This document shows positions 32,077-64,000 of a DNA stretch of 64,000 nucleotides, piece after piece; position 1 is the stretch's first letter, and every line of letters begins with the position of its first letter. The stretch covers positions 34,306,355 through 34,370,354 of the forward strand of contig OZ038462.1 in the NCBI GenBank assembly GCA_964036295.1, in the 5' to 3' direction. The translations under genes were made by a program, and so were the position numbers. Under the pieces are notes generated by a model. That model was not told where the DNA came from, ran no database searches, and saw only the letters and a list, made by a program, of their open reading frames with translations. Source of the stretch: Plumapathes pennacea (Eukaryota > Cnidaria > Anthozoa > Antipatharia > Myriopathidae).

Positions 32077-35000
32077 ATGTTGAAGACTGGCGTAGCTTTC
32101 TCTGGCGGTGGAATCCGGTCAGCGGCGCTCTGCTCCGGGGTCCTGCGCAGGCTCCTTCAACGCGGAGTTGAACCAGACTACCTGAGCTGTGTATCAGGGG
32201 GTGGTTACACAGGCACGGCCTACTTGGACTGGAAATACCGTAACAGGCAGAAAGACGACTCCAGGTGGCACATGAAGTTCTTTGAGCACATGCGAAGCCG
32301 AGCCGGTGTGCTCTGTGATTGGCGCAAACCTCTCCACGGCATTTTGGACACGATGATCATCATTGGCCTGATGCTGTTTGTCTCTGTAATAACTCCATTT
32401 GTTGTTTGGGGTTCTTACGCATGCCCGCTGGCTTTTCTTATTGATTATCTGTTTGGTGACATATTACGCGCAGACAGATTTCGATGTGCAAACCAACAGA
32501 ACTCTACAGCTTCTTTGGACGATTACTGTGCTGTTCAAGTAGGAACGGACGCTTTTAGAAGGATCATACTTTTCGCAGTTCCTTTGGCGCTCTTTTTCCT
32601 TTTCTACATCTGGGCGAAATTCTCACCCATATTTTCAGGGTTGGCCCAACTTCTCTCGACTATCGCCGGTTTGCTGTTTGCCTTCACGTTTGGTCCTTGG
32701 TTCATTCACGACTTTCTGGAAGGAACTCCACAAATTGTTCAGATCGCAGTCGTCATCATCAGCATTGTCATGTGGTTCTTTGCTCCTGTACTTCGTCACA
32801 GGGCCTCGTTCGTCCTCATTGTTTATTCATTCGCCCGTGTTGTTCGCTGGCGTGTGTACAAAGGAGATAGCGGCATCAATTACACGGAGGAGTGGTTTCA
32901 TGCCCTTTTGTTTACTTCCGGGTTGGTGATGTGCTTCGTGCCCTTGATCGGTGCTTTTCAGGCGCGTCTAGTCCACATCTATAACAGGTGAGTCAAACTT
33001 AAATTTGGTCATTATGCTCAAAGATTCAAAGATAATTACTTGCCAGCAATTCCTTCGACCGTTCGATTAGTTTTCAAGTTCTTTTTTTTTTTGGCTGACC
33101 TCTCGGCTGCTCGCGTACACATTTAAGCAGTTTAAGACTGAAAAAATAACACGGCGACGACAACGCTAGGAAACAGTACGTTTGTCTATTTTGAGGTTGC
33201 TTATTTTGTTCCGTTTTTGCCGAGGTTATTTTACTTTCCTTTTCTCTCACTAAGTCGTCTACGTCCTGACAACAACCTAAAAGGCTATTTAAACGATTTT
33301 TGCTCACGACTGTCGTATGCGACTTTCTTACGACACAAATTGTATCTTGTTAAACGACTCGAAAACAGTCGTTGGACAACAGTCGCAGGCAAAAATTATA
33401 CTGTGTAAATCGACCTTTAAAAAGAAGCATTTGAAGTCGCACGCGAGAGCACGACGACCCTGAGATCATGTCAGTTTAACTTCACATATTCAAGTACTCC
33501 TTTTGTCGTCTGCAAATAGTTTTATTATTTCGCCGACGTTGCTGTCGTCCTCTCCCGTTCTGTACCTTAAAGTCCCTAATGTCCAGTCTTTAATGATCTT
33601 CACTTCTCATTATCAATCTATTGCCATTGCACAAATCTTGGGACTGAACTTTCATCTACTCAAAAAAGTTTTTGTTTGAGCTAGATAAATGCCAACCAAA
33701 CCCATTTATTTTAGTAAAATCTGGCAAGCCTTCCCATTTGATTTCGTCTGCTCCGATTGCCGTTTTCGATAGCGGATACTGGCATTCGGCTGCCGTGTAC
33801 ACTCTTGCATCATTAAAGACCTCATTAAAAATATGCTCAGTTCGGTGACTTGCAAATCAAAACGTTCCAGTTTCAGGACAGTTGTTCTGGTAATCTTCTA
33901 ATATCTCTTTCTGAAGTTACTGAAGCTCAAAGTGAATAATATCGCAATTTGCGTGAGGAATTAGCCATCTGAGTTGCCGCGACTTGAGAAAATGATGTCA
34001 CAAATGAAATTGGTAACAAGGTCGCAGGAACGCGGCCGCGGGAAAATACAGAGTCAGATTTCGAACACAGAAAAAGCTCAGACACTTTTCTTCATCGTTG
34101 CAAAATGCACTTTGGTGATCTATTAATTTAGGATGTTAGCTACCGATTTGGCAGAAAAAATAACTATTGACCTACATGGTCGTTATAGTGGCCACCACAC
34201 GGGATATTTTGAATGAAAATTAGTGTTGGTCCAATGGTTTTCCGTTTCCATCACGAGGTGTTAAACATTACATTGTACGAAATCGTGGTAAAAGTAATTC
34301 CTCCCCTTTCCTTTATTCTATTCGGCACTTTTGGTCTCGTTTAAAAAGCTCCGAAAAAGAACCCGTGATGACAAAAGCGGAAAAAATGACACACCCCCTA
34401 TTGAGATTGGACACGAACAGCGGAAATGGAAAGACAAGTTATGCTTTTCAGCACGAGGGTTGTCCAAAGCTAGTCCACAATTGACCAAAAATTCTCTCAA
34501 TCTCTTGGCCAAAGAACTGCAGGTTTTTATGAGAAAAACAAAAGACACTAAAAATATTGTTGTACAATGAAATTGTGTTGTGAGCAATTTAATCCTAATT
34601 CAGGAAAGAGCAGGGCGCAGGACCTTAAATTGGATAGTATTTTTAGATGTATTCGGTCTGTGATTTGCGTCTGTTTATGTAAAGGTATTAGCCGGTGTCT
34701 AAACATTTATCGGTACTTCACTTTTAATTCTCTCTCCAGGTGGCGACTTCAAAAAGCGTTCTATACAGAAAAAAGTGTGGGAACATATGGTTGCACAGGG
34801 ATTAAGTGTAACGACTTCATTCTTGGGGCACATAATTTCTTTTTGCCAAGAAAAGATCAGCGTGCGTTGCTCCTAAATGACCACGTGGATTCATTGAGTC
34901 TTGGCGACTTGCAGAGCATGAAGCCACAGTACATCTCCAACATTGTTGTAAACGAATGGCGGAGCAACCCGCATGACAAACTCAAGTACGAACTGCTAAC

Positions 35001-37459
35001 CATGAGTCCAACGGAAATCGAAAGAATAGATCATCAGCCAGGAGCAGAGGAATTCTCAGGAAAGTTGGCACCAGAAGATATCAAGCTATCAGAAGCCATG
35101 GCAACATCAGCCGCGGCAGTCTCCCGGCACATGGGGGCATATGCAGACTCAGTAGAGCCAATCAAACATATCCAGACAATTCTGGGCCTTGGCATGGGAG
35201 CCTCTATGGTCTCCGATGCTGCTCATGAGAAGAGAGAGGGTTGCTTTTTGAAGGTAATGAATTTCCTTCTCACCCCGCAGTATGCTGGTATGTGAGTGCC
35301 TTCTTCTGTGTAACTATGTGCTCTCAAAAAAGCAATCCATCAAGGATTTGATTATTTCTTTGGCAGAGGTATCGGACGCGAGTCAAAATAACAACTCGAT
35401 TTTTGATCAGTTTTTAGTTCAAGTAATTGTGGAAAGAAACGGCTCTGGCTCGGATGATTGTAGAAAGTAATCGTGTGACTGCTTTGGTTTTGGGTTTGCT
35501 ACGCTTTCCGACTGGTTCCTAACAAGTTTAGAAAACAGTCTTGGCTACTCAAGAGCAAAAAAAAATAAATAAATAAATAAATAACTGGTTACGCTATTCT
35601 CATCAAGAAAGCAAGGCGTGGTGATAGCGTGTTCTCGCACTGTTGAATGGATTCTAACTATTAATCGCAATTACTTGGTTTTGATTTTTCCCGTACTTCT
35701 AGTTGGTCCGATGTGTAATTGCTAGCCTTATTGATTGGCTCTTTGATTTTGGGTCTTTTGGGGGCAAGGGAGGAGGGTATACATAACCACTGATTTTGTG
35801 AGCTGAGAGCCGCTCTGTTTCCCACACAATTTTGTCTAGGATTGTAGTTCTTACAATTACTGGCATTCCATTCTATTTCATTATGGTGACTTTGCAAGTG
35901 TCTAAATCCTATGAAAAGAAAAAAGGTGTATACTGATCTTCAGATCAGACCTCTTGAAAAAAGAAAAAGGATCTTATCTCAGATAATTTTTTTGTTTGGT
36001 TTTGCAGTTACTTCCTTACATTATCGAAGCTGTTCGCGTGGCCCCTGTGATCGTATTGCCGGTCTTCCATTACTTCGGACCTGGTAGCCCGATGTTTGTA
36101 TCCATTGGTATTTTTGTATTTTTCTTCTTTCTTGCCCTTCTGACTGCTGCATCCGTGGTCAATACCGGGAAAACAAATCCAGGCCAGTTAGAAAAAGTCA
36201 CCAGGTAACGTAACACTCAGAACCGTGTCAGTTCTGCCGCTCAGCTCGAAACAATTATTGATTAAAACATTTTCGTTTTCTTACGCTTGCATGAGTAGCG
36301 CTTAATAATTCGATGAGATAATTAACAAATGACACAGAGCCATATTATACATATTCGTTTTGTTTCGCTGAACTTACACGGAAAGTTGTTAATACTAAAA
36401 GGAAGTTGAAGTCAGTGTTAGCAAAAAATATGGCAAATTCAAACTTTTCCGCGAGTCTTGCTTAATACCCTGGGTACCTCCGCAACTCCCGAGAACAAGA
36501 AAGCCTCTGGTTCCCAGGTCTTGCCTCTTTTTTGTCTTAGAAAAAATAAGGAACTTGCTGTGTCGATTTAGAGAACGCTTGCGTTCAGGTCTTTGATAGT
36601 TTTCAGGCCTTCTTCATTTACAAACTAATTATAAGGGATGTCATTAACCAAATAATTTTGTTCTTTGTTTAGGTGGCTTCTTGTTCATGTGGCTTTTTGC
36701 CGCTACATGCGAGACCTCCTCAACATTACCAACACAGGACCCATGCCTCCCGCCATTTTACGCCTCAGTGACGGCGGCCATATTGAAAACTTGGCCATCC
36801 TACCGCTGTTAAAACAAAGGCTGCAAAGGATTGTGGTGGTAAATGGCGGCTACACAGTCCCAGACAGCTCCTATGGAGACACCCTTGTGCACGCGCTAGA
36901 GCTGGCCAGGGAGAAGCTGAATTGCGATTTCCTGGGTTTGGACGGCCGTGACGTCATACAGGACATCAAAGACAAATTTGTGAAGAGAGCACCGGGGCAA
37001 CAGCCAAGGAACTACAAGTTCAGAGTTGATTACTATGAAAGACAAACCGAGTTCTGTGAAGACAAGAAAGTGGGCGAAGGAGAGGTCATCCTAATCGCAC
37101 CACGTCACCCAGAAAAAGGCGTCCAGACGAATGAACACTTGACATGGAAGAAGGTGTTGCGTGACATCGACGTGGATCTTGAAGCTAATCTGTGGGGGCC
37201 TGGGCCTGACCTGATAGCCGAAGAAGTTGACCGTCTGACGTTCTGTTGCTGTGAGTGCTGTCACGACAAACCATTCTGTGGGATTTCTGAATCACTGTGT
37301 GGCGTCTTTCCCCAGCACGTGACAGCTAACCAGTTTTTCACGCCAACCATGTTCAGCGTGTATCATCGCGAGGGCTATCGCGCATGCGTGGAGGCTAACG
37401 TCGCTGAGTTCTTAGGAGCAGCGCCGTCCGTTGAAATGCATACCATCATTGAATCATAA
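32077..37459 (+). CDS. Gene A: polytopic membrane patatin-like phospholipase (four coding exons)
   Basis: Exons 32077-32987, 34740-35253, 36008-36204 and 36673-37459 join in frame (2409 nt, 802 residues; intron phases 2-0-2, all GT-AG). Residues 5-14 carry the glycine-rich oxyanion loop FSGGGIR. Ser40 in CVSGGGYTG is the expected nucleophile, and Asp574 in LSDGGHIEN the expected dyad partner. Exon 2 has LSEAMATSAAAVSRHMG, like the AMAISGAA block of patatin-like enzymes. Between Ser and Asp lie about six to eight hydrophobic segments (roughly 93-126, 163-180, 192-210, 221-239, 244-257, 274-292 and 483-527). A CCCECC cluster is at 732-737. Predicted role: acyl-ester hydrolysis of membrane lipids. 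The ATG at 32077 is preferred over 32014, because an acceptor lies at 32054 and paralogues begin at the same residue. Substrate unknown. Confidence 0.88.
32988..34739 (+). other. Intron 1 of gene A
   Basis: Donor CAG|GTGAGT and acceptor TCTCTCCAG|G. The intron holds no recognised gene. A 79-codon open frame at 34331-34570 has no recognisable domain. Palindromic GTCGT/ACGAC-rich sequence near 33250-33400 may be an old MITE. Confidence 0.7.
35254..36007 (+). other. Intron 2 of gene A
   Basis: Donor AAG|GTAATG and acceptor TTTTGCAG|T. It contains an (AAAT)n run at about 35565-35583 and no recognised gene. Confidence 0.7.
36205..36672 (+). other. Intron 3 of gene A
   Basis: Donor CCAG|GTAACG and acceptor TTTGTTTAG|G. 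Nothing else recognised. Confidence 0.7.
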
Positions 37460-37670
37460 AAAAGACAATCTTATCTTTTACGGCCAGAGCTTTACTCTTC
37501 CTAATATGGACACGATCAGATATAAACATATTGAAGAGTCTTTTTCAGCCACATTGCGTGTCACTTTGTGTTTTGTGTTTCCTTGGGAACGCTTGATTAG
37601 TTTGCAAAAATTATCGACCGTTGCATACAGAACAAAACGAAACATAACTAAGTTGCAACCATCGTACCGT

Positions 37671-37742
37671 GTTCAGCATGTATCATCGCAAGGGTTATCG
37701 CGCATGCGTGGAGGCTAACGCTGCTGAGTTTTAGAAGCAGCG
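37671..37742 (+). pseudogene. Duplicated fragment of the final patatin exon
   Basis: About 70 bp, starting GTTCAGCATGTATCATCGCA, match the last-exon sequence at 37353-37424 that encodes FSVYHREGYRACVEANVAEFLG, with about seven substitutions and one lost base in the GAGTTCTTAGGAGC region. It lies 210 bp beyond the gene A stop codon and has no other part of the gene, so it is a local partial duplication or gene-conversion remnant. Confidence 0.8.
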
Positions 37743-37885
37743 TTTTGTGCTGACAAAATTACCACTGTGTAGCACTAACGAGGAGCGGCTATCTTTTTTA
37801 ATGAGGTGCTAAGATTCGCAAGAATAGGAACCGCTAGGTTAAACCACATTAGGGTTCTTATTATATAATTTCTGAAGAAATTAGT

Positions 37886-37891
37886 AATAAA
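37886..37891 (+). terminator. Candidate polyadenylation signal of gene A
   Basis: AATAAA 427 bp after the stop codon, followed by a genomic A run at about 37909-37931. The 3' UTR just after the stop is shared with copies D and E. Other AATAAA motifs exist downstream, so the choice is tentative. Confidence 0.35.
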
Positions 37892-38339
37892 ATATAGAAT
37901 AATTTCAGAAAAAAAAAAAAAAAAAAAAAAAGGAATTAGATTGCACTTAGTAGTGTATAAATTGATAAATTGACCGTGTACAAATATTTATGAAATTCCA
38001 CGCAGTGATCTGAGCAGCTTTATAAGTAAATGTTATAGCAAGTTAAAAAAAAATGAATTAGTGGAAATTTAGCGTTCGACAGGTATGAATTAGAGTCACA
38101 AATGAATAAAGTTCCCAAGCACCAGTCTGTAGGTTTTTAATATAGAGCACCCGTCAGCGTGCTACTCTTGAGTAATAGAAACATGCATTTAGTCGTCGAT
38201 TCGTCCTGCTTTGGTTTCATATTTTGCACTATCTATTAATATTTCGTCTACTGGCTCGTTTGTAGCACCGCTTTGAGCTACGCTGGATGAATAAACCATA
38301 AAACACAGTTTCAGTGTGGTTTGACTAGCGCGTTGACAC

Positions 38340-39145
38340 TCGACGCCTCAACACAATCACCAGGGAGAAGTCGTCACAGCTTTGATCGACCGAATCACCC
38401 CGATCGCCAGAGTTGCTGCGATCGCCCAGAGGTTTCCATATGATCGTCTCGATCCCGGGGGGGGGGGGGGGGGGGGGGGTACTCCCATATATTTCCTATA
38501 TAGGGACGTTCCGCCCAATAGGGTTATCATTTTCAGGGTCCTCTGTCTTAAACAGGGTATCAAATTTTACATTTTTGTGTCATGGACAGGGTTATTTTCT
38601 GAAGATCTTGTCCTCCCCCTCTCCCCTCGACCACACATTTTGCACTCGCCATTTTTTCGCGCAATTTCGTAGTATGCTCCAGTGGAAACGCGTGCAACGT
38701 AGGCTAAGTTATTCTCTGATATTAAAAAAGAAAGACTACGCGCAAACAATTTTCGATAAACGGACTGGTGTTGACATGACCAAAGATAGTGTCTTGAATG
38801 GGGTAATTTTTTGGTCCAGTCTTGAACAGGGTATCAAATTAGAGCACTTTGTCTTAGACAGGGTAGCAAAATTTACATTTTGGTGTCTTAAATAGGGTCA
38901 GGGTTTTATAGAGTCAGCGGAACCCCCCTACCCTAATTCCTATTGAGTACCCCCCGTGGGGTCACGATCGTCCTAGGTGGTTTCCATTACAAATTTCTAT
39001 AGCCCCGATCGTCTGGGGTAGAACCGGTGCGATCCTTGGGACCACAATCGCCGGTGACTGTGTTTCCATATGATCGCTATGATTTCCCTTGATCGTCCCA
39101 CTACTTTTGCGGACGATCGAAGTGATCAGGGCGATCATATGGAAC
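38340..39145. mobile_element. GATCG-rich MITE split by a G-run element
   Basis: On both sides of the 38457-38955 insertion the sequence is rich in GATCG palindromes and carries GTTTCCATATGATCG (about 38427 and 39060), ending CGATCATATGGAACCCAGG near 39151. The two halves look like one non-coding element interrupted by the nested insertion. Confidence 0.5.
38457..38955. mobile_element. Dispersed element with poly(G)-TACTC terminus, copy 1
   Basis: Begins with 23 G (38457-38479) followed by TACTCCCATATATTTCC and ends GAGTACCCCCC, forming inverted termini. The inside repeats the phrase CAGGGTATCAAATT and similar. A second copy lies at 47332-47680. The ORFs within it are repeat-derived. Confidence 0.75.
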
Positions 39146-41935: not shown

Positions 41936-44900
41936 ATGGTCAGAACAGGACTAGCTTTCTCCGGTGGCGGAATACGGTCAGCGGCCTTCTGCTCTGGTGT
42001 TCTGCGCAGACTCCTTCAGTATGATGTTGAACCAGACTACCTGAGCTGCGTATCAGGGGGTGGCTACACAGGCACGGCCTACTTGGACTGGAAATACCAT
42101 AACAGGCAGAAAGACGATCCCAGATGGCACAAGCAGTTCTTTAATCGCATGCGAAAGAGAGCCGGTATGCTCTGTGATTGGCAGAACCCTCTACACGGCA
42201 TTTTAGACACGATGATCTTAATTGGTCTGATGCTGTTCGTGAGTTACATTGCCCCGTTTATTATTTGGGTCTCTTACGCATTCCCCGTGGCCATGTTCGT
42301 TGACTTCGTGTCTGGAGACATCTTGCGAGCCGACAGATTTCGTTGTCCAGAGTTGCAGAAAAATGAACGGAACGCCACAGCAGTACGTGACACGGCTGCT
42401 TGTGTCGTCCAAGCAGGAACTCTGGCTTACAAAAGAGTTTACTTGTTTTTTCTCCCATTGGCGTCGTCCATTTTTTTCTACATCTGGTCCAGAGACTCAC
42501 GTAAGCGCATCTCAGCACCCGCTCGCTTTGTATCATACATCTCCGGCTTGCTGTTCGCCCTGACATGTGGCCCTTGGTTCATCAACGACTTTTTGGACAA
42601 AACCCCAGTCCTTGTCCAGTCTGCTGCCGTCCTTTTTAGCATTTTTACCTGGTTTGTTGCTCCTGGACTTCGAGACACGGCATCTTTAATTCTCCTTGTT
42701 TACACTTTCGCCTATGTAGTCTACTGGCGCGTGTACGATGCCACTATCCTTGGTATCAAACAATCAGATGGATTGTTTTTTACGCTTTTGTTGGTCTCTG
42801 GGTTGGTGATATTTTTCACGCCCTTTTTTGACGTACTTCAGGGGCGCCTTGTCCACATTTATAATAGGTAAGTCTAATTCCCTTGCAGCAATTTTGGGGC
42901 AAATTTTCCACGCTAACAGTGATATGTTATGCTTACCTTTTGGGTTGTGAGGGTTCAGCTGAGCTGTACTAGTGTACACTAATGTGAATTTTCAAAATAG
43001 GCCTCAAGTTCACATAAACGTTAATAAGTGTGTTATTTGAAAAGTGCTTGCCTCTTTGTCTCAGGTGGCGACTTCAGAAGGCATTCTACACAGATAAAGG
43101 TGCGGGAATAAATGGGTGTTCCGGAATTGGCTGGTACGATTACTTCCCAGGTTCGTACTGCTGTACTCCCCGGCAGAATGACCCTGAACAGCCGGCGCAA
43201 GGACCTTTATACTTCAGAAACGAAACCCAACCTTACATCAGCATTGAAAAGCCAGCTGAGGGACCGTTGTGTCTTTCAGACTTGAGACATGTAAAACCAC
43301 AGTACATCTCCAACACCGTTGTTAATGATTGGCGATATTATCCACAAGACAAAAAGTACGATCTGCTGACGATGAGTCCAGAAAAGATCCAAAGAATTAG
43401 TAAATACCAGGCTCAAGTGAACGCTGATGAGGAGTTACCAAAATACAAAAGAATCCCCGAACAGTTTTCAGGCCAGCTGGAACCAGCAGATATAAAGCTG
43501 TCGGAAGCCATGGCAACATCAGCTGCCGCTCTGTCGTCTCATATGGGCGCATCTGAGGAGTCAATGGAAATCCTCCATCACCTTCAGGCAATTTTAGGGC
43601 TTGGAATGGGCGCGGTGGTTATCTCTAATCTCACGTCTGAGAGGAAAGAGTCAAAGAACAAATGTCTAAAGGCAAGTATAATCCATTTTAGTCTCGTTTG
43701 TGTAGGTATGAGTTATAGTTTTGTGTTTTTCTCAATAATAGTGTTTAAATGTTTCATAGATTACGTGAGAGGGTCATCTGCAAAAGATCTTGAGCATCAT
43801 CATTACTGTGTGCAAATCGTCATTTGGTCATTTGGTCAAATCGTCATTTCTATTTTTTTAACAATTTTACCTACTTACTACTCTTGTATCGATCGTCTGT
43901 AATAAGCACCGATCTATAAGCATTTTGTCCTGCTTATAATAATATCAACTGTTTCTTTGTTGCTGTTGTTCCAGTTCCTGTTGAACTTTGCTAAAGACCT
44001 CTGTCCACCTTTTTATTTTTTATGGTCTTCCCCTTCTCTGCGATCTTTCATCCACAGGTGATTCCCCTTGTCATTCAGGTTGTCCGCGTGATGCCACTGG
44101 TGTTCTTGCCCATTGTTTATTTTGCTGGTGCTGGTGATTCTGATTCAATGCCCATTGGTGTCCTGGTGTTCTTCGCTCTTCATGTCCTTTTATCCGCCTC
44201 GGCAGTGGTTAATACCGGAGTTGAAAAACAAGGATGCTTGGTAAAATTAGCAAGGTATGAATTCATTATGAATATCTTGGGGAATCTTTGAACATACAAG
44301 GGGGAGGGGGGAGGGTAAGGAGAGGCGAGGTGTTGTGAAGGAACCTCTCCCTAGAGGTTTGCATTCCATCGGATATATTTTGCATATCTTTCACCTTCAA
44401 CACATAGCCTGATTACATCCTACAAGATCGGGTCATTTTGGCCATTATGGCTAATTAGAAGCTCTGCTGGGTCAATCAATGACGTCATCCACCCTTTTTT
44501 CTCCAGAAGAGTGGAAGAAACCAAATAAAAAGTGAATATGACCTATAGATTGGGCACACTACAGGATCACACTATTTTCTCACACTGGCATGTGTGTTTT
44601 TTTTTTTAAACTTTGTCAACTTTTCCAAAATGCCTTAAGTTTTATATAAATATCTCAGCTTTATCAGAAAAAAATTGCTCGCCAGGGTCCTTGTAATAAG
44701 TCCGACGGATAAACACTTTTTATCCAATACATTTCGTTGGAAAATTTCCCCTGCAGATTATAGATTAATCCGTTTCAGCAGAAAACCTCTTTCGATGCAA
44801 GTTACCCAGTCATTTGTGAACCCTTTCGGCCATTAGCCCCCTTGGCCCCGTACATGGGGATTTTACAGTAATATGCCGGCCAACCGCGTATTCTTTTTCT

Positions 44901-45697
44901 TGATTCTTACCTCCAGGTGGCTTGCTATCCACGTACCTTTTTGCCGCTACATCCGAGAGCTCTTCGACGTTACAAACACAGGACCAGTTCCTCCCGCCGT
45001 CTTACTCCTCAGCGACGGCGGCCATATTGAAAACTTGGGTATCCTGCCGCTGTTAAAAAAGAAGCTGGACAAGATTGTTGTGGTAGATGGAGGGAACGGT
45101 TCCTTTCGAAACACCCTTATTAACGCGCTGGAACTTGCCAGAAAGAAACTGAACTGTTCCTTCACCACCATGGACGGAGATAATGAGCTAGCTGACATTA
45201 AAAAAAAGTTTTGCCAGCGTAGTGTTGAGCGGCCCCAGAAGTACTACGAGTTCAAAGTCCAGTACTGTAAGCAAGAAGGGGACGACGAAGACGGGAGGAG
45301 GAGTGATGGAGAGGGACGCATCATCGTCATCGGACCTCGTTACCCAAGCACTGATCAAAGTGAGTGTAAATGGCGGTCCGTATCACCCAGAGATGCAGAA
45401 GTTCCTGATCCAGATTTGTGGGGTGATGGGCCCATACTCGCCTCTGCGGAAGCGGATCGTCTCACATTCTGCTGCTGCGAGTGTTGTCATGACAGTTGCT
45501 CTCAATGCTGTCATGGTAAGTGTAAGTCCGTCTGGGGATGGATTAGTAAGAAGCTTTGTGGCGTCTTTCCACATCATAAGACTATGAACCAGTTCTTTAC
45601 CCCGGCTATGTTTAGCGCTTATCACCGGGAAGGCTACCGTGCATGCATGGACGCCCACATTGTTAGTTTTTTTAAAGATACAAATGAAAACATGTAA
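41936..45697 (+). CDS. Gene B: divergent membrane patatin-like phospholipase
   Basis: Exons 41936-42867, 43065-43671, 44058-44254 and 44917-45697 join in frame (2517 nt, 838 residues). Architecture is as in gene A: FSGGGIR at 8-14, Ser40 in CVSGGGYTG, a multi-pass segment, then Asp612 in LSDGGHIEN. It is the most divergent copy. Exon 2 is 31 codons longer, with two extra hydrophilic insertions (around QNDPEQPAQGP and QVNADEELPKYKRIPE). The C-terminal cysteine cluster CCCECC is followed by an added CSQCCHGKC. The exon 2 donor is AAG|GCAAGT, a GC-AG intron; reading through would reach a stop only after 76 more codons. The ATG at 41936 matches the start of the paralogues. The other three sites are GT-AG. 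Confidence 0.87.
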
Positions 45698-46130
45698 ACT
45701 GAAGAAGTGTAGGCTCTGGTCGGTTTTCCGCTGTAGACTCGCGATCGAGTAATGCACTGAAACTGAATACCAGAGCAAGGAGCATTATTTGGTAATTTGT
45801 TTCGATTTCCTTGTTTGATTGTACAACATATAATCGCTGTATGATTAAGTACCTCTGAGAACTCAGAGGACGGAAAGATTTACTAAGGGGTCATGTTCGC
45901 TTCCCTAGTGGTTCAAAGTGTAGCTAATAATTGTTTAAAAACTAAGAGGTTAAAAGAATATTCGTCCTCCTCATTTTTTGGATAGCTTTGTGGCGACTGG
46001 TACCACGAGTCATACAAAAAAAGTGTTTGAATTTTGCCTTTTATATATCATTTTATCCGCCCGACATATTCATAACTTACAACTACCTTGACAGCAAATT
46101 CTCTCAATCAGTGTGTAACTGTGTAGCTGA
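45698..46130. other. Downstream flank of gene B
   Basis: AT-rich presumed 3' UTR and flank. No recognised feature. Confidence 0.4.
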
Positions 46131-46430
46131 GTAAAACCCCGCTAAGTCGAACTCCCAAAGGAAACGAGAAAAAGTAAAACCCGCTAACTCAAACTCCCAA
46201 GGGAAACGAGAAAAAGTAAAACCCCGCTAAGTCGAACTCCCAAAGGAAACGAGAAAAAGTAAAACCCCGCTAAGTCGAACTCCCAAGGGAAACGAGAAAC
46301 GGTTCGAGTAGCGGGAGTCTGAGTTAGCCCATAGTAAATGACTGAAAGGGAAATCCAAGGGAAATGGGTTTGAGTTCGAGACAGCGGGGAGTTCGAGTTA
46401 ACTGAGTTCGAATTAGCGGGGTTCTACTGC
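46131..46430. mobile_element. MITE with internal 43-bp tandem repeats
   Basis: The left terminus, TAAAACCCCGCTAAGTCGAA, is repeated four times with a 43-bp period (46131, 46174, 46216, 46259). The right terminus, TTCGAATTAGCGGGGTTCTA, is its inverted complement. The design (TA next to AACCCCGCTAA) suggests a mariner-like non-autonomous element whose left end has been amplified. Confidence 0.7.
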
Positions 46431-48782: not shown

Positions 48783-51700
48783 TTATGGTTGAACTTGAAC
48801 AAGCAATTCAACGGGTGGGGTAGCTCCACGCATGCGCATTTCAACAGACGGCGCTGCTCCTAAGAACTCCGCGATGTTAGCTTCCACGCATGCGCGATAT
48901 CCCTCGCGATGATACACGCTAAATTGGGTTGGCGTGAAGAACTGGTTTCCCGTCGAGTGCTGGGGAAATACGCCACACATTGACTTAGAAATCCCACAGA
49001 AAGGTTTGTCGTGACAGCACTCACAGCAACAGAACGTCAGACGGTCAACTTCTGCGGCTCCCAGATCAGGCCCAGTCCCCCACAGCTCTGCTTCAAGGTC
49101 CACGTTGATGTCACGCAACGCCTCCTTCCATGTCACGTGCTCATTTGTCTGAACGCCTTTGTCTGGGTGACGTGGTGCGATAAGAATAACCTCTCCTTCA
49201 CCAACTTTCCTGTCTTTACCAAACTTGGTTTCTTTGTCGTAGTAATCAACTCGGAACTTGTAGCTCCTTGGCTGCTCTCCGGGTGCTTTCATCACAAAGG
49301 TGTGCTTAATATCCTCGATCACGTCACGCCCGCCCTCACCGATGAAGGAACAATTCAGCTTCTCCCTGGCCAGCTCCAGTGCGAGCACAAAGTCCAACGC
49401 ATAAGAACTGTCTGGAATTGCTGAGCCGCCATTTACCACCACAATTCTTTGCAGCCTTCGTTTTAGAAGAGGCAGGATGGCCAAGTTTTCAATATGGCCG
49501 CCGTCACTCAGATGTAAAATGGCGGGAGGCACAGGTCCTGTGTTGATGACACCCAGGAGATCTCGCACGTAAAGACAAAAAGGAATGTGGACAATAAGCC
49601 ACCTGACAAGGGAAAAAAACAAGACTGTCGTAACACTCTCATAAGTTATGTGCGTAAATAAGGATAGATCGCTCTATTATCAGAACAGTCAACAAAATAG
49701 AAAAGTGTATATTGACCTGTTTCTTGCTCTTTCAGTTTAGTGAAATGGTCGCTTAGCTCTCAAGAATTCTGATGTTTCGGCCGAGGAAACACCTATAAAC
49801 TTAGTGACTCGAGATAACGATAGAAACATGACCCAATCATTGGATTGAATTTCTCTTGAACCTAAGTATATTATAGTTTATATTTTTAGTTAATATTATA
49901 GTTTATAGTTTATAACTATATATATATATATATATATATATAGTTTACATTATATAAACAATAAACTACTTTTGGCGAGGAAAGATGCACGGATAATTGT
50001 CCGAGGATATTATCTGTTCCGAGAAGCGAACAGTTGCCCGAGAGCGAAGCTCGAGGGCAACTGTGAGCTTCGAGGAACAGATAATGTCCAAGGACAATTA
50101 TCCGTGCATATTTCCGAAGCCAAAAGTAGTTTATTGTCTTTATTATCCTTCAGCTATTTCCTCTCGCAGCGCAAATAATGGCGCAAGGACTGTGAAGTTC
50201 TTTGGTGCTTTCTGCAACTGCTTTTTCGACAAATGAATTGATGTCCTCCGCGGTAGTCATCTCGTAATGGTTTTTTGTGATTAATATTACTGTGTTCGCA
50301 TATTGTCCATAAACAGCGATAGTTCGCGAGGCGGGGCTTAATCGCTCGTGAGCGGACGTTATTCGGTCACGTGTCACGATTCCACCAATCACGCGCGGGA
50401 GGAAATATTTGATGGGTCATAAACTCTGACATTACCTGACCATTCTCTCTAAACATCCCGGATTTTCACTCCCAGTGTTGACTACGGATGCGGCAGTTAG
50501 AAGGATCGTGAAGAAAAAAAACACGAGAATGCCAATTGGTACAAGCACCGGATCTCCAGAACCGAAGAAGTGAAAAATGGGTATAGCGATTAACGGTGCG
50601 ACGCGAACAGCTTCTATAATGTAGGGAAGAGACTGCAAAGTGAAACACAAATATTTAATTTGGCGATAAGTATAAAGCGTACATTTGATACTAAAGTCAG
50701 TGTTTATTGGGAACATGCAAATAACAATACAGACAAACATGGAAAATAAATGAAAGATAATCCTTATTACACACAGCATGCCGTGACCCTCATGCCAACG
50801 TGTGATATGGTAAAAACTCAGTTGGGTATTTTGCAAAAAAAAAGTGATATGCAGTATTTCGGCTTACACGAGTAACTTGCAGTTCTTTCACTTGTATTAT
50901 GGAAACACGACGTCCCCAAAAAATAAGCCCAATATTTCCCGGCTAATTGCTAGAAATCCGGCGATTCTTAACTCCTTTTGTGTGTCGAAGTTAAGCACCA
51001 GCAAATTGCAAGCGCCATACAGTAATAAAGAACTCTACAAGTACAAAATAAATTATTACATATAAAAACATACGAACATGCAATAGTTGTACCTTTAAAA
51101 AGCAACCCTCTCTCTTCTCGTAAGCAAGATCAGAGACCATGGCCGCGTCAACTCCTAGCCCCAGCATCGTCTGAATATTTTTGAAGGATTCCGACGACTT
51201 CTCCAGGGCGCCCATGTGCCGCGACACCGCTGCCGCTGATGCTGTCATGGCGTAGGAAAGTTTTACATCTTTTGGCGCCAGCTTTCCTGCGAATTCCTCC
51301 GCTCGTGGTTGACAAACAATTCTTTCAATTTCCGTTGGACTCATGGTCAGCAGATCGTACTTGAGCTTGTCCTCCGGATCATCTCGCCACTCGTTCACAA
51401 CGATGTTGGCAATGTACTGTGGTTTCATGTCCTGCAAGTCGGCAAGGGACAATGCACCCTCGTAGTCATGGGCACGTGGCTGTTGCTTACCCGGCATGCA
51501 AAGGTGTGTCCCTGGAAAGTAGTCGTACCAGCCAATCCCTGCACATCCACAGGTCCCTACACTTTCTTCCGTGTAAAACGTTTTCTGGAGTCGCCATCTA
51601 GAATGGGACACACGTTTCTTTAAATATAATGAAGGAAATTTTGCGCGCTCTGACACAGTTACTACAATCTTTAAATAAGAACACTTGCCGCATGTACTAA

Positions 51701-53275
51701 TCCACGAATAAGCGCCCTCTTCCTCCCTCTTGTATAAACGCCCCCCTCGGATAATTGCCCCCTCTCTCTTCCTTTTTGTTGTTTTTGCACAAACGGTAAA
51801 TTAACACAATCCAAATCGACGTGACGTTGTGTGAACACGTGGTACACGTTTGGCGAACTAGCTAAACCAAATTTATTACTAAGTGTGTCGCTATTAGAAC
51901 TATACAAACGGCTTCCGTTGTGTTGTTGTTTATGGGAAAATGCTGGCCAGGATTAGGGAAAAAATGAATAAGCGTCCCCCTTCAAATAGGCGCGTCTTAT
52001 CCTAATCTTGAAATAAGCGCCTTATTCGAGGCCGGATTGTTGTTAGTTGATGTTGATGCTGCACCGCTATTTAATTGTAATTGCTGGTTTGTATATATGC
52101 TAGCGTTTTATCAATTTATTGTCGCGTGGCACTTTTTTATTAATGTGCTGCTAGTGTTGCTTAACGCAAGCAAGTAGCTATGTCGTCTTTCCCCTGCTAA
52201 ATTATGTCTTCTTCAAAGTAAAATCAATCGCTATATACTTTGCTTGGTTGAAGCTGTTTGGTTTACAGCCTCTGTGTTTGGAGCTGTAATTGTTTTAATT
52301 TTGTTGTTAGAAAGTGAACAAAGAACGTTTTATTCTGTGACAAGTGGCAGTTAAGACTTACCTGGTGTAGATGTTCACAAGACGCATCTGAAATGCACCA
52401 AACGCGGGAGCGAAGAACATTATCAGCCCAGAAATAAACAAAAGCACCAAAAACAGTTCCCCCGTATGTTTGATGCCGAAAACAACCCCGTTATACACGC
52501 GCCAATAAATAACATAGGCGTTTGTATAAACGATAAGGATAATCGATGCCTTGCTTCGCAGAGCTGGAGAAACGACCCACGTGAGGATGATGAAGACCAC
52601 AGCGCCGACTGGAATCGCACTTCCGGTGTGGTCAAGAAAGTCCCGGATGAACCAAGGACCAAACGTAAAGGCGAACAGCAAACCAGAGAGAGCCGAGAGA
52701 AGTTGGGCCATTCCTGAGAATTTGGACGACAATTTTGTCCAGATGTAGAATAGAAAACTCAGACTCATTGAAACCGCAAAAAGAATCAGCCTGGAGAAAG
52801 CTGTCGTTCCTGATTGGATGGCACAGGCGGCGCTGGTGGTATATGTGGAGTTGTGTTCATCTACGCAACGCACTCTGTCTGCTCGCAACATATCGCCAAA
52901 GAAGAAATCGATGACGAAGGCCAGCGGGAATGCGTAAGAACTCCAAATAACAAACGGAGTTATCACAGAGACAAACAGCATCAAAGCGAGGATGATCATT
53001 GTGTCCAAAATGCCGTGGAGAGGTTTCTGCCAGTCACAGAGCAGGCCGGCTCGACTTCGCATGTGGGCAAAAAACTGCTTGTGCCAGCTGGGATCGTCTT
53101 TCTTCCTGTTACGGTATTTCCAATCCAGGTAGGACGTCCCTGTGTAACCACCCCCTGATACGCAGCTCAAGTAGTCTGGTTCGACTCCGCGTTGAAGGAG
53201 TCTGCGCAGGACACCAGAACAGAGCGCCGCTGACCGGATTCCACCGCCGGAGAAAGCCAAGCCAGTCTTGGACAT
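48783..53275 (-). CDS. Gene C: membrane patatin-like phospholipase
   Basis: Exons 53275-52362, 51597-51093, 50632-50436 and 49602-48783 join in frame (2436 nt, 811 residues; phases 2-0-2, all GT-AG). It carries FSGGGIR, Ser40 in CVSGGGYTG, the SAAAVSRHMG block in exon 2, the membrane segments, Asp572 in LSDGGHIEN, and the CCCECC cluster. The start at 53275 aligns with copies A, B and D. The longer upstream open frame to 53494 lies across an acceptor (TTCAG|GAAACC at 53308/53309) and is probably intron. The C-terminus differs from A, D and E: after SVEM it continues RMRGATPPVELLVQVQP instead of HTIIES, through a repeated GCGCATGCGTGGAG motif. The exon 2 end (AAAG|GTACAA) is a weak donor. Confidence 0.87.
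49603..50435 (-). other. Intron 3 of gene C
   Basis: Donor CAG|GTAATG and acceptor CCTTGTCAG|G. It carries a (TA)n run (49917-49943) and the second long-hairpin MITE. Confidence 0.75.
49958..50300. mobile_element. Long-hairpin MITE, copy 2
   Basis: 180-bp palindrome at 49958-50137 (ACAATAAACTAC ... GTAGTTTATTGT, arms about 90 bp with few mismatches), plus a 160-bp tail homologous to 21016-21185. It is inserted in intron 3 of gene C. The palindrome centre (GAGAGCGAAGCTCGAGG) is longer than in copy 1. Confidence 0.8.
51598..52361 (-). other. Intron 1 of gene C, containing an AATAAGCGCC repeat
   Basis: Donor CAG|GTAAGT and acceptor CATTCTAG|A. A dispersed repeat at about 51700-52045 has inverted-looking ends: CGAATAAGCGCCC at the left and AAATAAGCGCC with CTTATTCGAGG at the right. 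It encodes nothing recognised. Intron 2 (50633-51092) holds nothing recognised. Confidence 0.65.
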
Positions 53276-54305: not shown

Positions 54306-54307
54306 TA

Positions 54308-56506: not shown

Positions 56507-56967
56507 AGGAAGCTGGGTTACACCCTCCCGGCCACGGTTGTTATAATGATGAAAATTTATAGATGTTTTGTCTCTTAGGAGCATTTAATGCGTTATTCAA
56601 ACTGTAACAGCACGGCAATCTAACTTGATGTGAAGTTATTCGAGTCAGCAAAGAACTTCAACCGCAATCACATTCAGCAAAGTGAATTTAGATAACTAGT
56701 GCGGTGCAAGAGTAATAATCATTAAATGCGTTGTAAGACTTCCTGCTGACCAATGCAAACCATTAGGATAACGCTAACTCGCTAACTGTAACTAATTAAG
56801 CTCGAATATAACTCGAATCCGAAAAAAACTAACAACGAAAACAAGAAATACTTGCTAACGCATGCAAAATACCGTGTGGTAGCCGTCACCAAATTTATCC
56901 CTTCCCATTGACAGTCAACATGTTTCACTTGTTTGCAAACTTGACTACAATTTATGTTTATCTATGT

Positions 56968-56973
56968 TTTATT
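56968..56973 (-). terminator. Candidate polyadenylation signal of pseudogene D
   Basis: AATAAA on the minus strand, about 137 bp after the D stop codon, within a 3' flank shared with genes A and E near the stop. Confidence 0.35.
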
Positions 56974-57109
56974 TCATAGTGTATGCGATATTTCGCATAA
57001 ATCAAGCGTTCCCAAAAAAAAAAAAAAATGTGAGAAACAGGCAATGTGGCTGAAACAGACTCTACCTATTAGGAAGAGTGAAGCTCTGGCCGTAAGGATA
57101 AGATTATTT

Positions 57110-60100
57110 TTATGATTCAATGATGGGACGCATTTCAACGGACGTCGCTATTCCTAAGAACTCAGCGGCGTTTGCTTCCACGCATGCGCGATAACCCTCG
57201 CGGTGATACACGCTGAACATGGTTGGCGTGAAGAACTGGTTAGCTGTCACGTGTTGGGGAAAGACGCCACACATTAACTTAGAAATCCCACAGCAAGGTT
57301 TGTCGTGACAGCACTCACAGCAACAGAACGTCAGACGGTCGACTTCTGCGGCTTCCAGATCAGGCCCAGTCCCCCACAGCTCTGCTTCAAGGTCCACGTT
57401 GATGTCGCGCAACGCCTCCTTCCATGCCACGTGCTGGTTCGTGTTGACGCCTTTGTCTGGGTGGCGCGGTGCGATAAGGATGACTTCTCCTTCTCCGACT
57501 TTCCTGTCTTTATCAAGATCAGTTTCTCTGTCGTAGTAATCAACTCTGAACTTGTACCACCTTGGCTGTTGCCCGGGAGCTCTCTTCACAAACTTGTCTT
57601 TGATGTCTGCTATCACGTCTCGTCCATCCAAACCGAGGAAGTAACAGTTCAACTTCTCCCTGGCCAGCTCCAGCGCGTGCAAAAGGTCGTTTCCATATGA
57701 ATTGTCTGGGACTGTGTAGCCGCCATTTACCACCACAATCCTTTGCACGGGTCCTGTGTTGTTAATATTGAGCAGGTCTCGCACGTAGCGGCAAAAAGGA
57801 ATATGAACAAGAAGCCACCTAAGAAGGCAACAATTTAGCATATCAACTCATTCCGGATCGGTCGAGGGAGAAAGTAAATAATACAAGTCTGTTAGTGAGC
57901 AGCAACTTTTACAGTAAAATTTTACAGTAAACTCTTCCTCATGCCAAAAAGCTGTAAATTTTCGCGGGCAGCGGTGTTTTTATGATATGAACCGCACATG
58001 CTATATGTTTACCTGGTACTTTTTTCCAAACATCCTGGATTTTCGTTCCCGGTTCTCATCACGGCTAACAAAGTCAGAAGGATGAGCAAAGAAAAGAACA
58101 CAAGAACTCCAATAGGAACAAGAACCGAGTCTCCAGCGCCGGAAAAATAGACAATAGGGGCAGTCAGCAGTGGAGCAATGCGAAAAACTTCAATGAAGTA
58201 AGGAAGAAGCTGCAAAATGAAAGGCACAGGAAGATATTTAGTGAGACTGAAGCTAAAAAAGAAAAAAAATAAAATAAAAAAAAATGGATAACTTAGTGGG
58301 TATCCAGCGCACGAAGTGCAAAGATTTTAGAAGCAAGGAGTTCAAGTTGATGCAATGATGACAAGAAGAAAAAGTTAAAAGAACCACACAAACAAAAAAT
58401 TATGGTAAACAAACAGATGGAAGAAATTTAGTCGGTAGCTTGCCTTTAGAAAACAGCTCTCTCTTTTCTCAAAGGCAACATCAGAGACCATGGAAGCTCC
58501 CATGTTAAGCCCAAGAATCGTCTGGATGGCCTTAAAGGGTTCTGCTGACTTAGCGCCCTTATTCGGAGACACGTCTGCAGCTGATGTTGCCATGGCATCC
58601 GAAAGTTAGATGTCTTCTGGTGCCAACTTTCCTGAGAATTCCTCTGCTCCTGGCTGACGATCTATTCTTTCTATATCCGTTGGACTCATGGTCAGCAGAT
58701 CGTAATTGAACTCGTCCTCTGGATCGTCACGCCACTCATTGACAACGATGTTGGAGATATACTGTGGTTTTATGTTCAGCAAGTGATCAAGACGCAATGC
58801 ACCCACGCGATCATTATGAGGCTGCCGATCTCCGGGTATGCAGAAATGTGTCCCTAGAAAGTAATCTTTCCAGCCAATCCCTGCACACCCACATGTACCA
58901 ACACTTTCCTCTGTGTAAAACGCTTTCTGAAGTCGCCACCTGCAAAAGTAGTAAGATTAACAGTGCCCCTCGGTCTAAATGACGCGGTTCAGATTTGGCC
59001 AATGCATGTCCGTAAATAAAAATTCTAAAATGCATGAATAGATGCTCATAAAACAAGATTCTAGCAGCACGAGAACTTTTTGATTTTACTGTTACTTAAG
59101 ACACCATGATATTGTGCAAGCAAGTCATGGAACATGTGTGTATCAAAACATTCTAAAAGCTTTTTCATTTGTACAATGTCTTAAACACAGTTGAGCAGAG
59201 AATCTCTTTAGAGCTGAAGGGGATGATAGTGTCTTTTTGAAAACGAAAGTGTAAAATAAGACTGGTGAAACTACTTAATGATTACCACGGCAAAACAAGC
59301 GGTTCAGTTTTCAGCTGATTTTACAGGAAACCCACCTGTTATAGATGTGCACTAGCCGCGCTTGGAATTCACCGATTAAGGGGACAAACCACATCACCAG
59401 CGCAGAAACAAACAAGAGCACCAAAAACGTATTATTGTTATGTTTGATACCACCAACAGACTCTTTGTACACACGCCAGTAAACAACATAGGCGAACGTA
59501 TAAACAATGAGGACGAAGGAGGCCTTACTACGCAGAACTGGAAGAAAGAACCACATGAGGACGCCGATTATGACAACTGCGAGCTGAACCACTAGTGATG
59601 TTTTGTCCAGAAAGTCGTGAATGAACCAAGGACCAAACGTGAAGGCAAACAGAAAACCGGAGAAAGTCGAGAGAAGGTGGGTTATTCCTGATAATTTGGA
59701 CGACACTTTTCCCCAGGTGTAGAAGAGGAGAAACAGCAAGAGAGACACAGCAAACAGGATGATGCGAGGCTGGCTAGTCTCCTGACTCTTCTCTGCTCGT
59801 AAGATGTCGCCAAACAGGAAATCAATGATGAGAGCCAAGGGGCATGCGTGAGAACCCCAAATGACTAGTGGAGATATCACAGAGACAAACAGCATCAAAG
59901 CGAGGATGATCACTGTGTCCACAATGCCGTGGAGAGGTTTCTGCCAATCACAGAGCACACCCGCTCACTCTCGCATGTGGGCAAAAAACCGCTTGTGCCA
60001 GCTGGGGTCATCTTCTTTGTTACGGTATTTCCAGTCCAAATAGGCCGTGCCTGTGTAACCACCCCCTGATACGCAGCTCAGGTAGTCTGGTTCGACTGCG

Positions 60101-60186
60101 CGTTGAAGGAGCCTGCGCAAGACACCAGAGCAGAGCGCCGCTGATCGGATTCCACCGCCGGAGAAAGCGACGCCAGTCGTGAACAT
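57110..60186 (-). pseudogene. Copy D: patatin-like gene with two nonsense codons and deleted catalytic Asp
   Basis: Exons 60186-59336, 58939-58444, 58209-58013 and 57818-57110 join to 2253 nt, still divisible by three, with intact splice sites. Ser40 in CVSGGGYTG is present. Codon 74 is TGA (59965-59967), where paralogues have CGA/Arg, a typical CpG transition. A TAA (58606-58608) replaces the Lys of DIKLSEAM in exon 2. Exon 4 lacks 78 nt (junction near 57747), exactly 26 codons running from PPAILR through the DGG aspartate to the Leu before QRIVVVNGG. Exon 1 is 20 codons shorter overall, mostly in the extracytosolic-looking loop after GDILRA. The exon 2 donor is AAG|GCAAGC. No other frame damage, so the inactivation looks fairly recent, unless the stops are sequencing errors. 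Confidence 0.88.
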
Positions 60187-63046
60187 ATCTTGCCTGGGTG
60201 AAGATTGGAAAAAGGTGTTGTTAACTATGGCCACTTTTTGTATATATAACATATACACATATGGCAATATTTTAAGCAGTGCAGATGCATATACATTGGG
60301 CAATACATTGGATATTTTTCAGAGTAATGAGGTAAGCTGCCATAGTAACAAATAAGCGCTAGTCTGCACATCTCCCAGATAACAAAACACAGTTTCGATC
60401 AGACAAAACCTGCCAGATACTCTCTATTACTTTGACATTTTGCATGCTTAAATTCGTTCACGCAAGATTCTCTATAATAACATGTAACAGCAACAGCAAT
60501 ATCTTTCTCAGCAGCCATATACTCACGAAATACAATAAACAGAGAAAAAAATCGCAAACTGGGAAGTGCAAGCCATGCACCTGAAATAACCTTAAGTGGC
60601 TAAGCTAGACAAGCGGCCATGAAATGAATAATTTTAATTCAGTAAAGGATATTCTCAATGCCGAATAAATTCTGAAATAAGCTAGAGTAGAAGGTTTATC
60701 GGTTGGATATCATTACACCGGTGGTGAGCAACTCAGTTTCAGTAGACAGATGCGGACACGATTAGAATTCGATGTTATATTCATTTCAAAGCAAGAATTT
60801 TCACTGTATGATGAATTTATCACTATCTGCTGATCGCTTGGACTGCACACATTAAACGAACAACTTCTATGAGTGTTATGGTCGTTCTAATTTTGACTCA
60901 GGCCACCAGATGCTCCATGTAGCCGCATGTATTGAAACGAAACTGTCGAGTCGATCACTGCAATGTTCGATGATCTACTAGTTTATCAGAATGTTTGCAA
61001 GGAGAACTTGTGCGAACAAACGGTTTCCACCGGCAAAAGCAGTACTGGAGCGGCCATAAATGCACTTGACGAGAGCAAAACGTTTAATCAAAGTTTTGGT
61101 GCCCTGCTTTGCGTGACAGTCGTGGGGTGTGGTATAGATTAATTTACAGTCTCAGAGATCTTTGACGGAACCGAACGTGCGTTCTCATCCATTTGCGACA
61201 ACTCTGAAACAACGCAAAGTTCCCTTTTGGGGACAAGCGAGGAAGGGTTTGTATCATCGGTGACATAACATGGCAAAGTCTAACTCAAGGAAAGTTTGTT
61301 ATTTCTGATACAACTACGACTTGCGTTTCTCTTCCTGTCAGTGTTTCTTGTTCTCCTCGTGTACACGGTGTGTTACAAGGGATATTTTGTCGGTTTTCCA
61401 AACAGAACTACCCTGGCTTGTGGTAGTCACATGCATTTCGCCTCTTATTTCGCGTGTACATAGTCCCGGAAATTATTAAACAACGTAATAGCACCTTTGT
61501 TTTATAAACTGAACCGAATATTTATCTATGCGTAAGCAAGTCACGACGAAAAAACGAGCTTGCTGGGAGAAGAAACGACGACCAAGGAAGTTAGAGTGTT
61601 TGGGTCCTTGAGTTAAGACCTAAGTGTTTGGGTCCTTGAGTTAAGACCTAAGTGCCGTTAACAAAGCGGAATACTTACTGTACGACAAACACGTCTCGTG
61701 AAACAAAGTTGCGTGAATCACTAAAAGCTATTCCTGCGTCTCAGAGATGTTTAGAGTTTGTGGGTGTGATTATATTATCGATTGTTTTTATCACACGTCT
61801 AAACAATTGTCTACTCTCTGCACAAATTGTAATCCTACTGGTTGTAATTATCATTAATGATTGGCGTAATGAATCAGCACACAACAGCTACAGCTCTACG
61901 CGTGGGCCTCGAATGTTGTTCAGTAAAACTGTTCAAAACGCTTTGTTGGTCCCCCTGTCCACCAGGAGTGCTAAACGTAATATCACGAAACCAACTCTCT
62001 ACCAGATATTTCAAGAGTGTGTATGCATTCAGTCACTGAGAGAATGTCGTTATAATCAGGTTAATCTCTAGACTTGAGAGTGGTCCTGGTTTTGTTTCAA
62101 TACTGGTCTCCGAAGATCTTGACAGTTGACAACTAAAATTCACTGAATTATAAATTATTTTAATTATACGTCGCGTATTTGTTCTGTTGGGAGTGGATCG
62201 GATAAATTGTTTGATGGGCTCTGAAACTGTAGAACTGGATGGGAATTCCAACAAAGACTTGCGGCATTGTAACACTTGGGTTTTCAATGTGAGTTTCTTG
62301 TTAATTTTAGATCGAAGCAAATAGCCGGCTCTTCTCAATAGTTGTGCGGAAAATACCACGTGATCAATTGATGCAAAAGCTACACGTACGTGGTTGCAAT
62401 CAGGCAATTCAAGTCATGATCCTAGAATTGTCTCTGTAAAACGTATAAAACGTGTTAACATGTTTAATGTAAACTGAACACTTATAAACAGTTATGACTA
62501 GCTGAAGACCGCATGGCTACCCACCAGAATGAGGTTGAACGATGAGAACGAGGTTAACTTACAGTCTCGTTCTCGTTACTTCAGTGCTGTTCAATTTCCA
62601 TGGTACTGGTATCAGAGTTTGGTTCACGGATTAATTACAACAAAATTTAACAACATCACAGCAACTTATTTATTAGCAGCCACAAGAAGCCCTACTTACA
62701 AAGTAATACTACAGAACAAATTACAAATTGGAGAGTGCAAGCCTCCTGAAACAACCTTAAGTGGCTAATCTATACAAGTGGCCATGAAATGAATAACTTT
62801 CCCGCTTATATGGGAAGCCTTTCTTATCAACTACAATATTAGTCCCTTGACCAATATGGAAACGATGCATGGCTACTACAAAAATTCTTCATTTGTAGAA
62901 TTTTACAAACTAATTAAGCTTACTAAGAAACCCTAAACACAAAGTGACACACAATGTGGCTAAAACAAACTCTTTGATATGTTTGTATCTGTTCGTGTCC
63001 ATATTAGGAAGAATAAAGCTCTCGCCGTAAAGATAAGATTGCCTTT
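60187..63046. other. Intergenic sequence between copy D and gene E
   Basis: No recognised gene. It contains a 28-bp direct repeat, GTGTTTGGGTCCTTGAGTTA, at about 61598 and 61625. The segment about 60560-60640 (upstream of D) matches about 62730-62800 (downstream of E), showing that the duplicated unit included flanking DNA. Confidence 0.5.
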
Positions 63047-64000
63047 TTATGATTCAATGATGGTATGCATTTCAACGGACGGCGCTGCTCCTAAGAACTC
63101 AGCGGCGTTAGCCTCCACGCATGCGCGATAGCCCTCGCGATGATACACGCTGAACATGGTTGGCGTGAAGAACTGGTTAGCTGTCCCGTGCTGGGGAAAG
63201 ACGCCACACAGTGACTCAGAAATCCCACAGAATGGTTTGTCGTGACAGCACTCACAGCAGCAGAACGTCAGACGGTCAACTTCTGCGGCTTCCAGATCAG
63301 GCCCAGGCCCCCACAGCTCGGCTTCAAGATCCACGTGGCTGTCACGCAACGCGTCTTTCCATGTCACGTGCTCATTCGTCTGAACGCCTTTGTCTGGGTG
63401 ACGTGGTGCGATAAGGATGACCTCTCCTTCACCAACTTTCCTGTTTTCTTCAAAATCAGTTTCTTTGTCGTAGTAATCAACTCTGAACTTGTACCACCTT
63501 GGCTGTTGACCGGGAGCTTTCTCCACAAACTTGTCTTTAATGTCCTGTATGACGTCACGTCCATCCAAACCCAGGAAATCGCAATTCAATTTCTCCCTGG
63601 CCAGCTCCAGCGCGTGCAAAAGGTCGTTTCCATATGAACTGTCTGGGACTGTGTAGCCGCCATTTACCACCACAATCCTTTGCAGCTTTCGTTTTAGAAG
63701 AGGCAGGAGGGCTAGGTTTTCAATATGGCCGCCGTCACTGAGGCGTAAAATGGCGGGAGGCACGGGTCCTGTGTTGGTAATGTTGAGTAGCTCTCGTATG
63801 TAGCGGCAAAAAGCCACGTGAACAAGAAGCCACCTGATATAAATGAGAACATAGAATTCATTTATATGCATAACTATCTTATGATCCCGTGCATATTATT
63901 TGATTTTATTTCTGACTGCGTGGATGATTACTTCGTGTTCTCATTTATTACCTGGTAATTTGTTCCAAGCGTCCTGGGTTTTCTTTTCCTGTGCTGACCA
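63047..64000 (-). CDS. Gene E (partial): membrane patatin-like phospholipase, exons 3 (part) and 4
   Basis: Exon 4 is 63833-63047, the same length (787 nt) as in gene A. It encodes RWLLVHVAFCRY, the catalytic LSDGGHIEN, EGEVILIAPRHP, CCCECCHD and the terminal SVEMHTIIES. The last 49 bp of the window (64000-63952) are the 3' part of exon 3 (VSTGKENPGRLEQITR), joined by a GT-AG intron (63834-63951) in phase 2. Exons 1 and 2, with the nucleophile serine, lie beyond the right edge. What is visible is undamaged, so E is probably a functional paralogue. Confidence 0.87.

Follow-up and report, generated by a model that had tools for sequence, protein, structure and literature searches.

A local array of putative membrane-embedded patatin/cPLA2-like genes in Plumapathes pennacea with relatives in bacteria

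Results and Discussion

A stretch of 64,000 nucleotides from contig OZ038462.1 of Plumapathes pennacea (positions 34,306,355 to 34,370,354; hereafter the window) carries, from position 32077 to its end, one gene in five copies (A to E), as found by stop-to-stop reading and by tblastn within the window. We propose that this array probably encodes multi-pass membrane lipid acyl hydrolases of the phospholipase A/B or lysophospholipase type, with a putative activity that is predicted from their sequences and from the modeled fold of a bacterial relative, and that they belong to the patatin/cPLA2 superfamily. Judged by sequence, the array proteins match, end to end, a bacterial subfamily in which a predicted membrane bundle interrupts the catalytic domain.

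Relatives in Bacteria

Searching plasmids with A by tblastn returned 18 records, all from alphaproteobacterial genera and all matching the N-terminus. Five of these plasmid-borne relatives were read whole and are 780–925 amino acids long, and the four that were aligned with A and B keep the full motif order. A scan of genome contigs gave at least 432 relatives among 593 candidate stretches, with 80 kept, and the two best tblastn loci were from Saprospiraceae. Phages searched with exon 1 of B gave no match, and viral contigs searched with the animal alignment alone gave no relatives among 35 stretches. An IMG/VR viral contig of 62 kb encodes L086, a divergent member of the family that sits on a long branch of the tree.

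A hidden Markov model (HMM) of 22 bacterial members scored 123.7 bits for A, 155.2 bits for B, and 123.5 bits for C, in pieces extending from residue 3 to residues 777–826; the best of the 10 shuffles listed, out of 150, reached 1.1 bits. Bacterial proteins from the same searches but outside the HMM (n = 59) scored 281–716 bits; therefore, A, B, and C are related to this family along their length, yet fall outside its sampled bacterial range. Comparison of the animal with the bacterial profile by hhalign gave an expectation value (E) of 4.4e-39 over columns 297–628. Alignment, profile comparison, and HMM thus uphold what an earlier note on this DNA had pointed out, namely a resemblance to the large membrane patatin-like proteins of bacteria.

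The bacterial family, exemplified by Rhizobium ruizarguesonis WSH68241.1, Sinorhizobium meliloti WQO97375.1, and the Saprospiraceae loci L006, L007, and L009 (20–24% identity to A in four rows), has the same order of motifs as A, namely GGGIRSA, DYLSxVSGGGY, and a membrane block. Further along, its YRDRLxxAF corresponds to YNRWRLQKAF in A and B, PYxLxN to PQYISN, SGAA to SAAA, and DQFF to NQFF, and its (S/T)DGGHx(E/D)N is kept in A. The array genes differ from it in having introns, a hydrophobic hairpin encoded by exon 3, a CCCECC cluster, and almost no N-terminal extension before the GGG motif, A starting only a few residues ahead of the GGG strand. For the 22 bacterial members (alignment A4), NCBIfam had no fitting model, with a weak and unrelated-looking match in one of the 22, and PADLOC gave no match at E 0.01; neither collection matched A, B, or C at E 1.

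Phylogeny and Possible Origin

The tree was built on cut core segments. From 86 loci, 79 bacterial or viral rows were retained and, together with A, B, and C, gave 82 core sequences and 373 columns, with the tail segment absent in 19 of the 82 rows; the dropped rows were two without an open reading frame (ORF) carrying the motif, three with proteins of 600 amino acids or fewer, L076, which was removed by hand, and L046, which had no DGG match. The members included come from Pseudomonadota, Bacteroidota, Acidobacteriota, Planctomycetota, Verrucomicrobiota, Myxococcota, Nitrospirota, and Gemmatimonadota. In this check of the array proteins against bacterial relatives, which the earlier note had called for, A, B, and C group together as a separate clade (100/100) whose branch is 2.49 changes per column long, but their placement in any bacterial group is weak: in the best tree they adjoin eight Bacteroidota proteins, mostly Saprospiraceae, at a support of 32/20. 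Since the tree contains no known eukaryote relatives, it gives no ground for claiming either horizontal transfer or an old vertical descent.

It is conceivable, but rather doubtful, that the genes were acquired horizontally from bacteria into this animal lineage and subsequently gained their introns and the exon-3 hairpin. Such a scenario would be in line with the relatives in the collections searched being all bacterial, bar the one viral contig, and with Saprospiraceae providing both the best tblastn loci and the neighbors of the clade in the best tree. However, these collections were searched without a set of eukaryote genomes, so that bacteria-only relatives say little, and the long branch and low support speak against reading the neighbor relation literally; a recent transfer from Saprospiraceae, though considered, is not demonstrated at that support. 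Further, the three introns are common to A, B, C, and D and are therefore older than the duplications.

Catalytic Motifs, Membrane Topology, and Proposed Mechanism

In gene A, the oxyanion and nucleophile region lies at 32101..32208 (+), comprising SGGGIRSA (residues 9–16) and SCVSGGGY (residues 37–44) with the proposed nucleophile S40, and the motif of the proposed catalytic Asp, SDGGHIEN (residues 573–580, D574), lies within exon 4 at 36767..36790 (+). All three motifs are invariant in A, B, and C, in agreement with the motif set that the earlier note had described as common to the copies, and GGGxR, VSGGGY, and DGGH are also present in the four aligned bacterial rows. The SDGGH motif is found in E as well and is lost in D. 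Predicted membrane helices lie between the proposed Ser and Asp, which are separated by more than 530 residues, and A shares this placement of a membrane block with the bacterial family. Hydropathy peaks of A fall at residues 92–110, 163–181, 192–210, 221–239, and 273–291, and similar blocks occur in the seven bacterial proteins examined. In the first loop, A (N142), B (N146), and C (N142) have a common sequon flanked by two conserved cysteines, which fits a predicted lumenal or outer location of this loop.

Exon 3 of gene A (36008..36204, +), which encodes the hydrophobic hairpin, sits between the two enzyme halves. In a survey of 78 bacterial rows (L021 and L046 gave no anchor), none of the relatives measured had a 19-residue stretch of mean hydropathy of at least 1.6 at the hairpin position, and none had a CCC or like cluster, whereas CCCECC is invariant in exon 4 of the array genes; that it might be a palmitoylation site is a guess.

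In the mechanism that we propose, Ser40, placed in the elbow that follows the second strand, would attack the ester bond with Asp574 as the base, and the GGG oxyanion hole, helped by Arg14, would steady the intermediate. Six predicted helices after the nucleophile, together with the two-helix hairpin of exon 3, would return Ser and Asp to the same cytosolic face, the even number of passes keeping both enzyme halves on one face, and the enzyme would draw its lipid from the leaflet it sits in.

The same catalytic apparatus would serve a hydrolase and a transferase alike, and some group IV phospholipases A2 (PLA2) have acyltransferase or transacylase activity. An acyltransferase or transacylase, or else a membrane protein that keeps its catalytic site for regulation, comes into consideration, and the CCCECC cluster might point to an additional function, for example palmitoylation. 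None of the present results separates hydrolase from transferase, and we regard these possibilities as unlikely next to a lipid acyl hydrolase.

Family Assignment

The earlier label of a membrane-embedded patatin/cPLA2-like family is supported, its cPLA2 part through the predicted fold of a bacterial relative. Pfam Patatin (PF01734) gives borderline matches to the N-terminus of A (51 residues, 7–57) and B (67 residues), which take in no more than the first third of the model, and it was found in 20 of the 22 bacterial members, eight of which also match PLA2_B, the cPLA2/PLB family (best E 0.0008). No other Pfam family matched full-length A or B at E 1, hence no C2 or ankyrin domain was found; pieces of the proteins gave three matches to unrelated families, all below the cut-off (E 0.044–0.45). 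Among solved structures, bacterial profiles matched human cPLA2-delta (E 0.0023 and 0.0036) in the Protein Data Bank (PDB). Their top PDB matches, chemokine receptor chains in both searches and in one of them also other membrane proteins, were rejected as matches of hydrophobicity over the membrane block. For a predicted model of the bacterial relative L009, the best-scoring solved fold was cPLA2.

Group IV cPLA2 (PLA2G4; 1CJY, 5IXC) shares GGGxR and the serine elbow with the array proteins, but these have no detected C2 domain, carry the predicted membrane bundle inside the catalytic domain, and have CVSGG where cPLA2-delta has GISGS. The C2 domain is also missing from some group IV PLA2 members. 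Patatin and PlpD (1OXW, 5FYA) share the patatin core fold, via the bacterial model, and the DGG motif, which is a known feature of these proteins; by contrast, they are compact chains of about 250–360 residues and gave lower Z scores (14.7–17.5).

Several results weigh against this assignment and the proposed topology. The Patatin match of A (25.7 bits) is below the cut-off of 27.7 bits and that of B (28.0 bits) barely over it; bacterial rows are only 20–26% identical to A; the hhalign match omits the N-terminal residues 1–296; and a strict GxSxG elbow is not kept in A, B, or C, which have CVSGG with Cys two before Ser, the four bacterial rows having TVSGG or AVSGG. In the PDB, no solved structure matched A by sequence at E 1, and the animal profile matched designed proteins only (E 0.77 or worse), with no cPLA2 at E 1. 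By hydropathy alone, exon 1 shows five clear helices rather than the six proposed, and thus the six-helix topology stays a prediction. The membrane bundle of the bacterial model has a predicted local distance difference test score (pLDDT) of about 50–71, and the model of exon 1 of gene A, folded by itself, was poor (pLDDT 54.7, predicted template modeling score 0.32), so that fold and helix count lean on the bacterial relative.

That the array proteins are ordinary animal PNPLA (ATGL, iPLA2, or NTE type) or PLA2G4 enzymes that have merely diverged is very improbable, since the common superfamily, the N-terminal Patatin match, and the cPLA2-delta matches of the bacterial profiles are set against a Patatin match limited to about 50–70 residues with no other Pfam family, a proposed Ser–Asp pair split by membrane helices, matches to the bacterial membrane family at 124–155 bits, and the failure of the animal profile to find cPLA2 in the PDB at E 1.

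Gene Models and History of the Array

For genes A, B, and C, the four-exon models are complete and run from ATG to stop without internal stops. Gene A (32077..37459, +; 802 amino acids) starts exactly at 32077 and has exons at 32077–32987, 34740–35253, 36008–36204, and 36673–37459 (including the stop). Gene B (41936..45697, +; 838 amino acids) has exons at 41936–42867, 43065–43671, 44058–44254, and 44917–45697, and gene C (48783..53275, −; 811 amino acids) at 53275–52362, 51597–51093, 50632–50436, and 49602–48783. Copy D (57110..60186, −) is a pseudogene with all four exons recognizable, and copy E (63047..63833, −) is represented by exon 4 only, as the remainder would fall past the end of the window. 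In addition, a relic of about 22 codons of the exon-4 3′ end lies downstream of A (37666..37731, +). Intron phases are 2-0-2 in A, B, C, and D. The introns of A, B, and C are GT-AG except for the GC-AG intron 2 of B, a GC donor that D has at the same intron; the splice sites read AG|GT at the end of exon 1, AAG|GT (AAG|GC in B and D) at the end of exon 2, and AG|GT at the end of exon 3. Of 33 control queries made from A, B, and C (three reversed, 30 shuffled), none matched the window at E 1e-4, so the array is not a chance finding.

Five copies were thus present as originally described, and tblastn and exon models agree with the orientation claimed, A and B on the plus strand and C to E on the minus strand; boundaries and phases are common to A through D. 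Three copies are indeed complete, but they are A, B, and C, as E, with exon 4 alone in the window, cannot be counted among them. Two repeats reach into the array. A 43-base repeat is present four times at 46130–46299, between the converging halves (B and C), and intron 3 of gene C contains, at 49950–50281, one copy of a dispersed repeat some 330 bases long, with another copy, 89% alike, outside the array at 20841–21159.

B is the most divergent copy, as had been noticed before, with identities of 447/785 to A and 450/783 to C, compared with 572/799 between A and C. The ratio of nonsynonymous to synonymous divergence (dN/dS) over the whole coding sequence was 0.24 for A–B (784 codons), 0.26 for A–C (799), and 0.23 for B–C (783) by NG86, and 0.28, 0.34, and 0.22, respectively, by YN00; A, B, and C are under purifying selection. 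E and A are identical at 231 of 261 residues of exon 4 (dN/dS 0.29). D is dead, as proposed earlier, with one in-frame stop in exon 1, another in exon 2, and an in-frame deletion of 26 residues in exon 4 that takes out the catalytic-Asp motif. Its exons give dN/dS of 0.19–0.50 against A, B, and C, which suggests that D died recently but is no proof of it.

Within exon 1, dN is 0.06–0.11 in the first 90 codons, which contain the oxyanion and nucleophile motifs, versus 0.25–0.42 beyond codon 133, and dS is also lower early (0.31–0.66 versus 0.63–1.72). This low early synonymous divergence could be due to gene conversion. The closest exon-4 pair is A and E (dS 0.23), alike over 939 bases at 90%, extending 150 bases beyond the stop codon; as they lie on opposite strands, an inversion probably occurred in the history of the array. 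We suggest that local duplication, accompanied by an inversion, gave rise to the five copies, and that one of them was killed by mutation. The earlier view of a birth-and-death cluster is supported.

Almost a third of genes are reported to lie in tandem arrays in two coral genomes (PMC10236652, in whose main text the words patatin, phospholipase, and PNPLA are absent). With coral genomes this rich in tandem arrays, the array would be ordinary if the host is a coral.

Other Features of the Window

Upstream of the array, an ORF at 17451–18041 (+) encodes two domains, a MADF DNA-binding domain (105 bits) and behind it a Myb/SANT-like domain (40 bits), and was the sole one with a Pfam match at E 0.01 among ten ORFs scanned outside the array; MADF is mainly metazoan. 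Together with the introns and a sparse gene content, this ORF fits an animal genome. A large tandem repeat built in layers, its periods being about 99–478 bases, occupies 8907–10107, with strong strand asymmetry around it (AT skew −0.30 at 8001–10000).

Implications

Literature searches, with most subscription journals outside their coverage, showed no work on this family in animals among the papers listed, and it is quite possible that unannotated or automatically annotated entries from other animals exist in databases. The cluster may represent a branch of this familiar enzyme superfamily that has so far been overlooked. More specifically, we tentatively consider, while giving it somewhat less than even chances, that it is a new animal branch of the bacterial-type membrane-embedded cPLA2-like family, with the bacterial family as the prokaryotic kin of group IV PLA2. 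If this is true, a membrane-anchored cPLA2-like form lives on and duplicates in animals, where group IV PLA2 starts eicosanoid signaling. The array genes, together with a broad bacterial family for one member of which a cPLA2-like fold is predicted, would offer a handle on the origin of the cPLA2 fold, and an array with one dead copy is a natural series in which to ask where the protein is constrained. For the animal itself, the array would add a candidate lipid-signaling or membrane-remodeling enzyme.
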